A stretch of 25,279 nucleotides of DNA, from IMG/VR virus record IMGVR_UViG_3300043099_000440, positions 1-25,279 of that record. One strand, given 5' to 3'. The notes beneath the pieces are model-generated. The model was not told the DNA's origin. It ran no database searches and worked only from the letters and a program-made list of their open reading frames with translations. Positions 8,031 through 13,504 of the stretch are shown piece by piece. The stretch's first letter is position 1. Every line of letters begins with the position of its first letter. The DNA is from a virus. The translations under genes were made by a program, and so were the position numbers.

Positions 8031-8593
8031 TGAACATCAGCATCAATATAACATACGTCAGTGGAACAAAAGTCGAACTGGTCGTCCCACTTGAAGAGCC
8101 GGCACAACTCGTCAGCCAACCAGAGTCACCTGTGACACCAGAGCCTGTGCAGCCTGCGCAGGACTTGGCTGACGCGATGGCGGGTCTGCCTGTGCTTACC
8201 GACGAAGAGCGTGAATTGCTCAAGCCATCCGGCAGACGGTACACGTCCGTGCAAGATATGGTCGATGAGCTTAAGCAAGACCCCGAGTCAGGCAAGACGA
8301 TGAGCCTGTACGACATCACGTACGTCACCCAAGACGGCAAGGAGTGGAAGGTGCCACCGGGTTTGATGAAGGACTTGATCATCATCTACGGCGAGAAGAC
8401 CGTCGAGCAAGAGCTGTGGAAGGCCCACGCCTGGCTCGAAGCTGACCCTTTACGACGCAAGACCAAGCGCGGCATGGGGCGCTACCTTAACGGGTGGCTC
8501 AGTCGTGCATCGTCAATGGTGCGTGCACCGATTAAAACCCTACTCAAGCGCGAGAGCTTACTCACCACAAATGGAACACAAGAAAGCTGGTAG
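8030..8593 (+). CDS. Replication-accessory-like protein, long paralogue (187 aa)
   Basis: 187 residues. The N-terminal ~45 residues are Pro/Gln/Glu-rich and linker-like. A middle part (about 46-110) contains LTDEERELLKPSGRRYTS and a short beta region (YDITYVTQDGKEWKVPPG). The C-terminal HAWLEADPLRRKTKRGMGR (133-151), then YLNGWL, is the same motif as in the 90-residue upstream protein. This C-terminal motif is shared by many phage replication organiser or loader proteins in my recollection. It starts in a TAATG overlap and ends 23 bases inside the helicase N-terminal gene, so the two are translationally linked. A helicase loader or initiator accessory is the most reasonable guess; not proven. 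Confidence 0.65.
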   Translation: MNISINITYVSGTKVELVVPLEEPAQLVSQPESPVTPEPVQPAQDLADAMAGLPVLTDEERELLKPSGRRYTSVQDMVDELKQDPESGKTMSLYDITYVTQDGKEWKVPPGLMKDLIIIYGEKTVEQELWKAHAWLEADPLRRKTKRGMGRYLNGWLSRASSMVRAPIKTLLKRESLLTTNGTQESW

Positions 8594-9278
8594 ACGCAGG
8601 CCGGTGGAGTTGCCACCTGACACGGTTGTGCCAACCGCGACCGAGGCTGAGCGTGGGATAGCGTCTATTGCGCTCAATCACCCCGAGGTGTTCCTGCATC
8701 ACATCTCGGAGAAGAACTTCAAGGTGGCGGACATCTTTGAGCCGCTCAGTCACCGGGTGTGCGAGATCATCTTGCAGCAGCAGAGCCGCAACGCTTCGTC
8801 AGAAATTCGTGTGGTTTTTGAGAAGGTCCGTGAGACATTGCCGACAACCCAGTTCCATGAACTTAGCGAACTCTACACACTCATGCCCATTGCCGGCGCG
8901 ATTGGCGAGCTTATCGAGATCGTCAAATCCACCGCCAAGCGGCGCACCTTGCAGCATGTGGCGCACGAGGTGCTCATGGCGATTGGCGACTCGGCTGTGC
9001 AAACGCCGGAGTTGCTCAGTGATGTCGTGATGAAGGTGGAGAGCTTGTCTCGGGAGCTTGCTCCACCAAAGGTGATGGACACGAAGGCGCTGCTTATCAA
9101 CGCACTCAATCGTTACGAAACCGGGGATGACGAGTCTATGCGGATAAAAACAGGCTACTCTGCTATCGACAACATCTGTCCTATACGATACGGAGACTTT
9201 GTTGTCATCGGCGGTGAAACCAAATCTGGCAAAACCATGCTGGCACTCAACATTATTGCAAATCTAATAAATGAATAA
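8571..9278 (+). CDS. Replicative DnaB-type helicase, N-terminal half with Walker A (split gene)
   Basis: 235 residues from ATG 8571 (MEHKKAGRRRP). The N-terminal domain is recognisable from TATEAERGIASIALNHPEVF, the usual 'S.EAE..vLG..l' start of DnaB, followed by a helical bundle and linker to about residue 170. The RecA-like domain begins with IKTGYSAIDNICPIRYGDFVVIGG, and Walker A GGETKSGKT is at 214-222. The frame stops 13 residues later (MLALNIIANLINE), where DnaB normally continues to the 'SLEMP' motif. The missing part (SLEMP, Walker B, H3, H4) is encoded at 12920-13504. The combined length (429) and the spacing from GKT to SLEMP (22 versus about 21 in E. coli DnaB) show that the two ORFs together make one helicase. 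The stop overlaps the next start (ATGAATAA). Confidence 0.85.
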   Translation: MEHKKAGRRRPVELPPDTVVPTATEAERGIASIALNHPEVFLHHISEKNFKVADIFEPLSHRVCEIILQQQSRNASSEIRVVFEKVRETLPTTQFHELSELYTLMPIAGAIGELIEIVKSTAKRRTLQHVAHEVLMAIGDSAVQTPELLSDVVMKVESLSRELAPPKVMDTKALLINALNRYETGDDESMRIKTGYSAIDNICPIRYGDFVVIGGETKSGKTMLALNIIANLINE

Positions 9279-11300: not shown

Positions 11301-11723
11301 ATGAGTTGCATACCAGACATCAAGACTACAAACGAAATGTATAACTTATATCTTGAGGGATACAGCATTTCAAAGGTTGGAAGAGCATTTGGTGTATCGC
11401 GGCAAACTGTCTTTAAAAGATTCAGTCGGGCAGGGAAAAAGTTGCGATCAAAAACACTTCTTCCGTTTATGATTTTTAATGGCAAGAAATATACTTTGAG
11501 AAAAGTTGGCTATATGGGCTGCACAGATGGATGTCGATCTCTTATGCATAGGGATATTTGGATTCACCACAACGGGCCAATACCAGATGATTACGACATT
11601 CATCACATCAATGGCGATAAAACAGATAATCGGATTGAAAATTTAGAGCTTTTGACAAAGTCGGAGCATAGCCGCAGACACGGGTTTAAAGGAAATCAAT
11701 ACATTAAAAACAGAGATAAATGA
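11301..11723 (+). CDS. HNH (homing-type) endonuclease
   Basis: 140 residues. The N-terminal helix-turn-helix (MYNLYLEGYSISKVGRAFGV, then SRQTVFKRF, 13-41) is for DNA binding. The C-terminal HNH core has LMHRDIWIHHNG (81-92), YDIHHINGDKTDNRIENL (98-115) with the catalytic His-His pair at 101-102 and Asn110, and SEHSRRHG at the end. This is the common phage HNH_3-type free-standing endonuclease, which nicks or cuts specific DNA and spreads by homing. It is AT-rich compared with neighbours, has its own promoter-like sequence, and lies in the block that separates the two helicase halves. It ends in an ATGA overlap with the alternative frame at 11720. Probable mobile element, and a candidate cause of the split. 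Confidence 0.85.
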   Translation: MSCIPDIKTTNEMYNLYLEGYSISKVGRAFGVSRQTVFKRFSRAGKKLRSKTLLPFMIFNGKKYTLRKVGYMGCTDGCRSLMHRDIWIHHNGPIPDDYDIHHINGDKTDNRIENLELLTKSEHSRRHGFKGNQYIKNRDK

Positions 11724-12901
11724 AACCATGCACAATAATACTTCCATCGTCCCTTATGTCAGCCTTTGCAGTGGATACGAAGGCATCGGACTTGGACTCC
11801 ACCGCTATATCCCAAATCTTCGCTGCATTGCTTACTGCGAGAGGGAAGCATTTGCCATCGCAAACTTGGTTGCGAAAATGGAAAACGGACTACTGGACGC
11901 GGCTCCTGTTTTCACGGATGTCACAACTTTCCCTTGGGAACAATATGCTCCATACATGGCTGGAGGGATTCTTTCTTTCGGATGGCCTTGCCAACCAGTC
12001 TCTTGCGCTGGAAAACGAAAAGCCACAGAAGACGAACGATGGTTGTTTGACATCATTGCAGATGGAATTTCCATTATGCGCCCAGGACTCATCTTCGCAG
12101 AGAATGTTGAAGGACTCTTGTCAGCTAAAATGCCTAACGGATCATTGGTATTCGCCCATTGCGTCGATAGACTGGAAAGCCTACATTACAAAGTTGCGGC
12201 AGGCATATTCAGCGCGGCTGAATGCGGCGCGCCTCACCAGCGCAAGCGAGTGTTTATCTTGGCCCACCGCTGCGGCGAGGGATTACAAGGGGACATCGCC
12301 AGGATATTTATTCAGGGCGGATGGCAAGAGCAGGGTGGATCAGTTGCCGGTTGCAGTGGATCAAGCGGAAGCGGGGAACTGGCCGACTCCAACGGTACAA
12401 GAAGCGGGCAAGATTGGGAATCAAGCGAACCACGGACAACTAGCGTTAAGCAATCACCCAGCATTGAGGGGCGAGGTGACAAGAGAGAAGTTCGAGAAGG
12501 GCAAGCATGGCCCAGCCGCCCTGGACAACCCCAACACGCATGGGAGCCGCCCAGAGTCGTGGGCAACACCGAGAGCGGCAGACGCTGCTGGAGTGGACTA
12601 CCAGTACGATCAGGGAAATCATGCGAAGCCCCGGTTGATGTTGCCGGGACAGGTGAAAGCATGGGCAACGCCGACGGCGCGGGATCACAAGAGCGGTCGC
12701 GGCAACGAGGCGCGGGAGTACAGCGAGCTCACGCCGATGGTGGAACGGACGCAGAGCGGCAAGCTCAACCCGCGCTGGGTGGAGACGTTGATGGGCTTAC
12801 CAGTGGGGTGGACGATGCCCAGTTGTGTATCACCTGTGACAATCGCACCGACGAGTTGCGCCTCCTTGGCAACGGAGTCGTTCCGGCTACAGCAGCATTA
12901 G
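11720..12901 (+). CDS. Overlapping-frame WPTP-repeat protein (393 aa) within the methyltransferase gene
   Basis: Open for 393 residues in a frame different from the methyltransferase and covering almost all of it. It starts in an ATGA overlap with the HNH stop. The C-terminal half looks like genuine protein. Four related units lie at 181 (WPTAAARD), 221 (WPTPTVQE), 281 (WATPRAAD) and 315 (WATPTARD), followed by KLNPRWVETLMGLPVGWT (348-365). I know this WPTPxAxD ... LNPxWVExLMGxPxGWT pattern from phage methyltransferase-associated proteins. SQTWLRKWK (47-55) and LRQAYSARLN (159-168) also match my memory of that family. The N-terminal half is Ser/Leu-rich and may only shadow the conserved methyltransferase motifs. 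Either a true overprinted gene or a recurrent shadow; function unknown. Confidence 0.5.
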   Translation: MKPCTIILPSSLMSAFAVDTKASDLDSTAISQIFAALLTARGKHLPSQTWLRKWKTDYWTRLLFSRMSQLSLGNNMLHTWLEGFFLSDGLANQSLALENEKPQKTNDGCLTSLQMEFPLCAQDSSSQRMLKDSCQLKCLTDHWYSPIASIDWKAYITKLRQAYSARLNAARLTSASECLSWPTAAARDYKGTSPGYLFRADGKSRVDQLPVAVDQAEAGNWPTPTVQEAGKIGNQANHGQLALSNHPALRGEVTREKFEKGKHGPAALDNPNTHGSRPESWATPRAADAAGVDYQYDQGNHAKPRLMLPGQVKAWATPTARDHKSGRGNEAREYSELTPMVERTQSGKLNPRWVETLMGLPVGWTMPSCVSPVTIAPTSCASLATESFRLQQH

Positions 12902-12951
12902 CTTTTACCACACTACTAAATGAACAAAGGAATACTCGTCATCTCGCTTGA
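11728..12951 (+). CDS. DNA (cytosine-5-)-methyltransferase
   Basis: 407 residues with the C5-methyltransferase motifs in order: motif I VSLCSGYEGIGLGL (11-24), motif IV GWPCQPVSCAG with catalytic Cys88, motif VI ENV (125-127), motif VIII QRKRVFILA (171-179) and motif X LLGNGVVPATAALAF (379-393). It transfers methyl groups from S-adenosylmethionine to cytosine C5. Between motifs VIII and X (about 180-375) the chain is Gly/Ser/Arg/Glu-rich with ELADSNG, VGNTESG and MGNADGAG units. These three are exactly what the WPTP/WATP units of the overlapping frame give when shifted by one base. No restriction enzyme is seen nearby, so it is an orphan methylase, perhaps for anti-restriction. The last 32 bases run into the helicase C-terminal gene (LLNEQRNTRHLA). 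Confidence 0.85.
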   Translation: MHNNTSIVPYVSLCSGYEGIGLGLHRYIPNLRCIAYCEREAFAIANLVAKMENGLLDAAPVFTDVTTFPWEQYAPYMAGGILSFGWPCQPVSCAGKRKATEDERWLFDIIADGISIMRPGLIFAENVEGLLSAKMPNGSLVFAHCVDRLESLHYKVAAGIFSAAECGAPHQRKRVFILAHRCGEGLQGDIARIFIQGGWQEQGGSVAGCSGSSGSGELADSNGTRSGQDWESSEPRTTSVKQSPSIEGRGDKREVREGQAWPSRPGQPQHAWEPPRVVGNTESGRRCWSGLPVRSGKSCEAPVDVAGTGESMGNADGAGSQERSRQRGAGVQRAHADGGTDAERQAQPALGGDVDGLTSGVDDAQLCITCDNRTDELRLLGNGVVPATAALAFTTLLNEQRNTRHLA

Positions 12952-13504
12952 GATGCCCGCGAACCAGATCATCGACCGACTCGTCGCCCGGTTGGGCAGC
13001 GTCAGCCTGCGCACCCTCGCTGAAGGGGCCAAGAACGAGCGTGACATCCGGGGCGTCCATAGTGCCATCCAGAAGCTCAATAGCAGCCGTTTGGTGGTGC
13101 GCGACGACCTGTACGACATCGCCAACATCTGCGCCACGGCCCGAGCTCTGGCGAAGAGCCCAGACGGACTAGGCGTACTGTTCGTCGATTACATCCAGCT
13201 TGTGCGCTGCGACCTCGGGAAGGACAGTAGCCGCGAGCGTGAGGTGGCTGAGGTTAGCCGTAGTTTGCGCTTACTTGGCATCGAATTAGGTTGCTTAGTT
13301 CTCAGCATTACGCAACTAAATGAGCAGGGCAAAGCTCGCGAAAGCCGTGCAATCGGACAAGATGCTACAGCCGTGATGGTTGTGAAGCTGTCTGATGACC
13401 CAGAGTTCCGCGAGATTGGCATACCCATCCAACGTAACGGCCCGTGTGGTGTAAGCACAAACTTGCGTTTCCACGGGAAAACCGCGACATTCCACAATGA
13501 ATAA
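12920..13504 (+). CDS. Replicative DnaB-type helicase, C-terminal half with Walker B (split gene)
   Basis: 194 residues that begin just where the other half stops: MNKGILVISLEMPANQIIDR carries the DnaB 'SLEMP' motif. Walker B VLFVDYIQL is at 86-94, motif H3 SITQLNEQGKARES at 129-142, and H4 QRNGPCG (the usual 'KQRNGPTG') at 171-177. All catalytic elements after Walker A are present, so this piece cannot hydrolyse ATP alone and needs the 8571-9278 product. A TAA stop directly precedes the ATG in frame, so no N-terminal extension is possible. It starts inside the methyltransferase gene (32-base overlap) and ends in ATGAATAA, the same eight-base stop/start junction that ends the N-terminal half. 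Probably both products assemble into a hexameric helicase. Confidence 0.85.
   Translation: MNKGILVISLEMPANQIIDRLVARLGSVSLRTLAEGAKNERDIRGVHSAIQKLNSSRLVVRDDLYDIANICATARALAKSPDGLGVLFVDYIQLVRCDLGKDSSREREVAEVSRSLRLLGIELGCLVLSITQLNEQGKARESRAIGQDATAVMVVKLSDDPEFREIGIPIQRNGPCGVSTNLRFHGKTATFHNE

Follow-up and report, generated by a model that had tools for sequence, protein, structure and literature searches.

The window analysed here, a viral contig taken over its whole length of 25.3 kb, carries a methyltransferase locus upstream of terminase- and portal-like genes, and at this locus two long open reading frames on the same strand occupy almost the same DNA. The first-pass annotation had placed these ORFs at 11720-12901 (393 aa, starting in an ATGA overlap) and 11728-12951 (407 aa), and both lie exactly at those positions. 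The second, which we call frame A (alpha), and the first, frame B (beta), share 1174 nt, with B shifted by one base (+1) relative to A; the ATG of B overlaps the end of the upstream ORF (ATGA), and the start of B precedes that of A by 8 nt. The features discussed below are as follows.

11728-12951, plus strand: frame A (alpha), predicted C5-cytosine methyltransferase, 407 aa; motifs I-VIII and X, without motif IX; PF00145, phrog_363
11720-12901, plus strand: frame B (beta), 393 aa, with helices in its N-terminal part, four W-units and a segment resembling motif IX; phrog_1008; under purifying selection
11720-11730, plus strand: dual start ATGAAACCATG, B start at 11720 and A start at 11728
11764-11799, plus strand: A motif I (LCSGYEGIGLGL in translation)
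11980-12003, plus strand: A motif IV GWPCQPVS, which contains the catalytic PCQ; no variation at P87 and C88 among 75 sequences
12100-12108, plus strand: A motif VI (ENV); E125, N126 and V127 invariant (75 sequences)
12238-12255, plus strand: A motif VIII (QRKRVF); R172, K173, R174 and F176 invariant, Q171 and V175 nearly so
12508-12567, plus strand: A conserved island WPSRPGQPQHAWEPPRVVGN in the TRD-like half; columns W261-V277 nearly invariant
12862-12885, plus strand: A motif X (LLGNGVVP); GNGVVP invariant, substitutions at A third positions
11720-11980, plus strand: B N-terminal helical region, residues 1-87; AF2 helices 10-17, 27-39, 47-55, 58-70 and 74-87 (low pLDDT), with reduced A-synonymous change
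12155-12250, plus strand: B long helix, residues 146-177 (AF2, pLDDT ~88-90 over 151-170)
12260-12673, plus strand: B W-units WPTA (12260), WPTP (12380), WATP (12560) and WATP (12662); proposed TRD-like region
12764-12814, plus strand: B segment LNPRWVETLMGLPVGWT, similar to motif IX; under constraint in frame B alone

Anatomy of the two frames

Frame A is, judged from its match to PF00145 and the presence of motifs I, IV, VI, VIII and X, a C5-cytosine methyltransferase. The match (E 4e-26) covers profile positions 4-166 of 324 only, the frame also matches phrog_363 in PHROGs, and M.HhaI is the top match both by profile and by fold. It had been annotated as carrying all C5-methyltransferase motifs, which holds for motifs I-VIII and X; motif IX and the TRD were not found in chain A, which has no segment of the LNP..GLP type and in which the PF00145 match stops at position 166. 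In the AF2 model, residues ~1-190 and ~380-405 are ordered, and residues ~200-375 are of low confidence. The product of this frame had also been described as becoming low-complexity between ~12230 and 12830, and this is not so throughout, since after ~12270 it still contains the conserved island at 12508-12567 and motif X.

Frame B matches phrog_1008, a family named "DNA methyltransferase", with an E value of 1e-21, as do all 76 of the 76 members, and it has no match in Pfam or NCBIfam and no hit in a profile search of the PDB. Its AF2 model, computed for B alone, is poor (pLDDT 54). Four WPTP/WATP units had been reported in its second half; four W-units are indeed present, one of them reading WPTA rather than WPTP. 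The A units LADSNG, VGNTESG and MGNADGAG are, as had been noticed, the same DNA as three of the B W-units read one base shifted. Across loci, the number of W-units correlates with the length of B (r = 0.79).

Downstream of the W-units lies the segment LNPRWVETLMGLPVGWT, which looks like the motif IX missing from A, judging from its position and a short pattern. An HMM of this LNPRWV segment of B finds the nested beta proteins of Paenibacillus phages (2e-10) and, weakly, the single-chain methyltransferase gp4 of Gordonia phage Baddon (0.02), in which the IX-like segment lies in one chain and motif X follows shortly after; the same HMM fails to retrieve the canonical motif IX of the alpha protein of Streptococcus phage MM1. 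The first-pass annotation overlooked what is likely to be the logic of the pair, namely that B would supply the motif IX that A lacks.

The start codons of both frames are packed together in most relatives. In 74 of the 83 non-redundant loci the start of B is 2, 5 or 8 nt upstream of that of A, in forms such as ATGTGGAT, ATGACATGGAT, ATGAAACCATGC and similar ones, and in 33 loci neither frame has an alternative in-frame start upstream. Thus, if both proteins are full length, both probably begin within these few bases. There is no clear Shine-Dalgarno sequence before either start in the window, and an SD-like motif was found in just 20 of the 74 loci; it is possible that translation in the window is coupled to the upstream ORF through the ATGA.

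The ORF directly upstream (11301-11723), whose stop forms this ATGA with the start of B, encodes an HNH endonuclease that has an HTH at its N-terminus. Of the loci fetched, only L007/L087, L085, L012/L086 and L076 have this gene, and so it looks like a mobile neighbour and not a part of the enzyme. The window also contains a DnaB-like replicative helicase in two pieces 3.6 kb apart, at 8505-9278 and 12920-13504. The first piece ends just after Walker A (DnaB_C profile 2-44, with GKTMLALNIIANLINE preceding the stop), the second begins with MNKGILVISLEMP (DnaB_C profile 49-255), and no intein is visible at the split in the window. In relatives down to ~51% identity the first piece stops at this point or close to it, and in those down to ~65% identity the second piece forms an ORF of its own at this point; in L116/L028 the gene is unsplit.

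Two open frames and selection across relatives

Two scans of viral contigs yielded 148 loci, which after removal of duplicates correspond to 104 distinct A genes, the window and phage C75C1 included; a scan of genome contigs gave only 3 relatives. The overlap between A and B ranges from 787 to 1489 nt (median 1129 in the 83 non-redundant loci), and identity between pairs over motifs I-VIII of frame A (region 1) falls as low as 46%. More divergent dual-frame versions were found in named records, that is, in cultured cyanophages, an Acidovorax phage and a Sphingomonas plasmid.

In the public phage and plasmid records examined, mostly one of the two frames is annotated. For instance, gp46 of Acidovorax phage Alfacinha3 ("cytosine-specific methyltransferase") is frame B, and its 395-codon A frame is unannotated; in Synechococcus phage Sc-Yong805-2 and the Sphingomonas paeninsulae plasmid, B is annotated as hypothetical and A is unannotated, and in phage C75C1 only A is annotated. 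The Synechococcus phages Ssp-JY39 and Yong-M2-251 (L157 and L168) carry the same dual-frame gene, annotated in B only in the former and in A in the latter. PHROGs lists phrog_363 (A) and phrog_1008 (B) as separate "DNA methyltransferase" families, with no indication that they share DNA.

Several loci depart from the common layout. In L074, L130 and L137 the sequence between motifs IX and X differs in such a way that motif X lies in frame B, and A ends in a Cys-rich tail (CCDDVICWKCGGHYADCPC); it seems, then, that either subunit can contribute motif X. An indel common to L142 and L144, located after motif VIII, has brought the C-terminus of A, with motif X, into frame B and the W-unit and motif IX part of B into the third frame. 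L131 and L132 have an insert of ~200 aa in A before motif X and an altered end of B, LNPRWVCVLMNL(S/P)VFWVKP, with a changed motif IX-like segment. Frame A is interrupted by one in-frame stop each in L016 and L081.

The openness of both frames goes well beyond chance. In nearly all of the 104 distinct genes, frame +1 stays open until the A stop is about 10-100 nt away, whereas frame +2 contains 6-36 stops. When the A protein was held fixed and synonymous codons were redrawn over A codons 2-166, which make up the catalytic half, 5.5 stops per gene were expected in B with the codon use of the window and 2.6 with that of the family, and none was observed in 102 of 102 genes. In the same region, an A-frame ATG followed by A, which would read as TGA in B, was found in 0 of 342 cases. 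The reciprocal null, with the B protein fixed over the W-unit half, predicted 9.2 stops in A, and again none was present in 96 of 96 genes. We therefore rejected chance or codon bias as the source of the openness on the strength of these synonymous-codon nulls.

To describe selection, substitutions in 44 disjoint pairs were counted by their effect in both frames (SN, for example, is silent in A and alters B), and for 19 pairs the control consisted of 56 flanking genes with a single coding frame, to which a sham +1 frame was assigned. Over motifs I-VIII, SN/SS was 0.31 as against 0.86 in the controls, and NN/NS was 0.69 as against 1.06. The A-synonymous rate over the same motifs had a median of 0.42 times that of the controls and was lower in 18 of 19 pairs; these control genes come from mosaic phages, and the within-gene contrast given below is independent of them. 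The 4-fold sites of A at which no change can create a B stop also diverged less, at 0.56 times the controls (lower in 13 of 14 pairs; Wilcoxon P = 0.0012). Since the suppression persists at such sites, selection merely for the avoidance of stops was rejected.

Within the gene, 4-fold sites of A differ at 0.114 in codons 2-60 and 133-156 and at 0.384 in codons 85-108 and 367-391, in the same direction in 42 of 44 pairs; these blocks were picked after the profile had been seen, and they match broadly the predicted helices of B (0.114) and its predicted disorder (0.384). This contrast rejects a difference in divergence time between the methyltransferase cassette and its flanks. Constraint on the B reading is weak where the DNA encodes motif IV of A (4-fold difference 0.38), and in the motif X block it is mainly A that is constrained. 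The block of the motif IX-like segment shows the reverse, with 4-fold A sites differing in just 1.5% (0.015) over codons 349-366 and substitution values of.05 for NN,.05 for SN and.44 for NS. Frame A is constrained in its second half as well, where the island WPSRPGQPQHAWEPPR is conserved and codons 265-276 give.07 for NN,.08 for NS and.29 for SN.

Thus, the B protein is under selection in the first, catalytic half of the locus and in the motif IX-like segment, and the A protein in motifs I-VIII, in the island at 12508-12567 and in motif X. With both frames free of stops and under purifying selection at the protein level, the pair has the signature of functional overlapping (overprinted) genes. 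Selection confined to a single frame over the whole length, which the first-pass annotation had named as an outcome that would count against its proposal, was looked for, and both frames turned out to be selected; the overprinting that it had suggested is well supported by this protein-level selection on A and B and by more than 100 homologues in which both frames are open.

A probable two-subunit methyltransferase and its alternatives

We consider that the locus most probably, with a probability of somewhat more than three in four, holds the genes for the two subunits of a C5-cytosine DNA methyltransferase, a heterodimer of the M.EcoHK31I type, and that these genes are overprinted along nearly their whole length. 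Frame A would give alpha, with SAM binding, the catalytic motifs I-VIII, the conserved island and motif X, and frame B would give beta, with a helical N-terminal part as a proposed docking surface, the W-unit region for proposed target recognition, and motif IX. Ribosomes would initiate on one mRNA at the two starts, which lie 8 nt apart, and would translate a single 1.17-kb stretch in both frames, so that two interdependent subunits could arise from one segment. The enzyme would presumably methylate the DNA of the phage itself and protect it from host restriction. This reading draws support from the loci with motif X in frame B, from the single-chain, tandem and nested forms of related enzymes, and from the existence of natural C5 enzymes made of two polypeptides. 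We infer that both proteins are made and form a heterodimer, that the W-unit region serves as a TRD, and that the product methylates cytosine and has this biological role.

The alternative that survives best, which we nonetheless find unlikely, is that both frames are translated and selected and that B does not complete the methyltransferase but is a separate protein, such as a regulator, an anti-restriction protein or a DNA-binding partner. No catalytic fold is recognised in B, and its conserved helical N-terminal part exceeds what a TRD and motif IX would need, both of which would suit such a protein; however, the motif IX-like segment is the most conserved part of B, is what A lacks and lies in the right place in the DNA. 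Motif X, moreover, is found in either frame, and tandem and single-chain relatives carry a similar segment within the enzyme, which also argues against a separate function.

It is much less probable that a single polypeptide is made by programmed frameshifting, passing from A (motifs I-VIII) to B (TRD and motif IX) and back to A (motif X). The order of motifs in the DNA (I-VIII, TRD, IX, X), with a change of frame on either side of the TRD and motif IX, is what such a product would require, but each molecule would need two programmed events, both openness and constraint in B begin at its own start codon, well ahead of the first switch, and the paired start codons would be left without a purpose. 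Frameshift sites at the frame junctions, which the earlier reading had advised looking for, did not emerge either: 75 of 77 loci have no canonical -1 slippery heptamer in the B phase after motif IX, and no +1-prone site occurs consistently after motif VIII.

Least credible of all is that B is open only as a by-product of the amino acids and codon use of A, or through ancestral compensating frameshifts, with one product mattering, for although the +1 frame of C5 methyltransferase genes can stay open over moderately long stretches (in Baddon gp4, for example, 250 codons), this is contradicted by the synonymous-codon nulls and the lack of any ATG-A, by a reduced 4-fold divergence that tracks the predicted B helices, and by persistence in 100+ genes. 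Two compensating frameshifts, which the first-pass annotation had offered beside overprinting, do not explain a B frame that is open and constrained upstream of 12230, an A frame that is open through the TRD-like half, or paired starts 2-8 nt apart throughout the family.

Known split enzymes and implications

Natural C5 methyltransferases made of two polypeptides are already known, and it is the near-complete, start-to-end dual coding that differs here. In M.AquI, motifs I-VIII are on one polypeptide, the larger subunit, and IX-X on the other, smaller one, whereas in M.EcoHK31I, which recognises YGGCCR, the large polypeptide contains motifs I-VIII and X together with the predicted TRD, and the small one contains motif IX only (PMC3404938). 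The proposed heterodimer of the window resembles M.EcoHK31I in having two polypeptides of which the large one has motifs I-VIII and X without motif IX, as frame A does; in contrast, the predicted TRD of M.EcoHK31I is in alpha, and the W-unit region of the window is in B. The beta subunit of M.EcoHK31I is short (176 aa) and internal, being encoded out of frame inside the alpha gene. B of the window, on the other hand, is similar in length to A, has its start 8 nt earlier and shares almost all of its DNA with A.

Other arrangements exist in phages. Nested pairs in Paenibacillus larvae phages (Tadhana_54/55, both annotated as DNA-cytosine methyltransferase, and ydiP in HB10c2) have an alpha without motif IX, as in the window, and an out-of-frame beta that, like B, has W-units and GQLNPDWVECLMGFPIGWT. 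Unlike B, this beta has 234 aa and starts ~200 nt inside alpha; the first catalytic motifs are not overlapped, and there is no dual start. In M.AquI and in gp75/gp74 of mycobacteriophage Wile the enzyme is divided behind motif VIII and beta carries IX (and X), and L074, L130 and L137 likewise have X in B; gp75/gp74 are, however, tandem consecutive genes with an annotated overlap of 11 nt, whereas the genes of the window family are overprinted end to end. The "alpha/beta" genes of Streptococcus phage MM1 (L002, DQ113772) were considered as a parallel and rejected, as its alpha, orf13, already has a motif IX-like segment (LTPRECWRLQGFPD) and motif X; given these segments, orf14, annotated as "C5 methyltransferase beta subunit", looks spurious.

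With somewhat less assurance than for the window itself, we think it probable that these genes constitute a widespread phage and prophage family in which methyltransferase subunits are overprinted from start to end, with a compact dual start (ATGTGG, ATGACATGG or ATGAAACCATG), W-unit DNA that encodes recognition modules in one frame and a linker with conserved elements in the other, and a motif X that can switch frame. If so, few conserved genes of dsDNA phages would be read in two frames of the same strand over a greater length. We found no description of overlapping methyltransferase genes with such a start-to-end arrangement in phages in the open-licence literature searched. To our knowledge, overprinting on the same strand that is both long and conserved across large divergence is seldom met outside small viruses; here the dual-frame layout is kept in more than 100 distinct virus genes. 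Annotation of one gene per locus hides the overprinting, as the opposite choices made for Ssp-JY39 (B) and Yong-M2-251 (A) illustrate. The locus offers a testable system in which one mRNA would give two interdependent subunits from start codons 2-8 nt apart. Furthermore, as related enzymes occur as a single chain (Baddon gp4), in tandem (Wile gp75/gp74), with a nested beta (the Paenibacillus phages) and with full overlap (the window family), they form a comparative series on the origin of overlapping genes.
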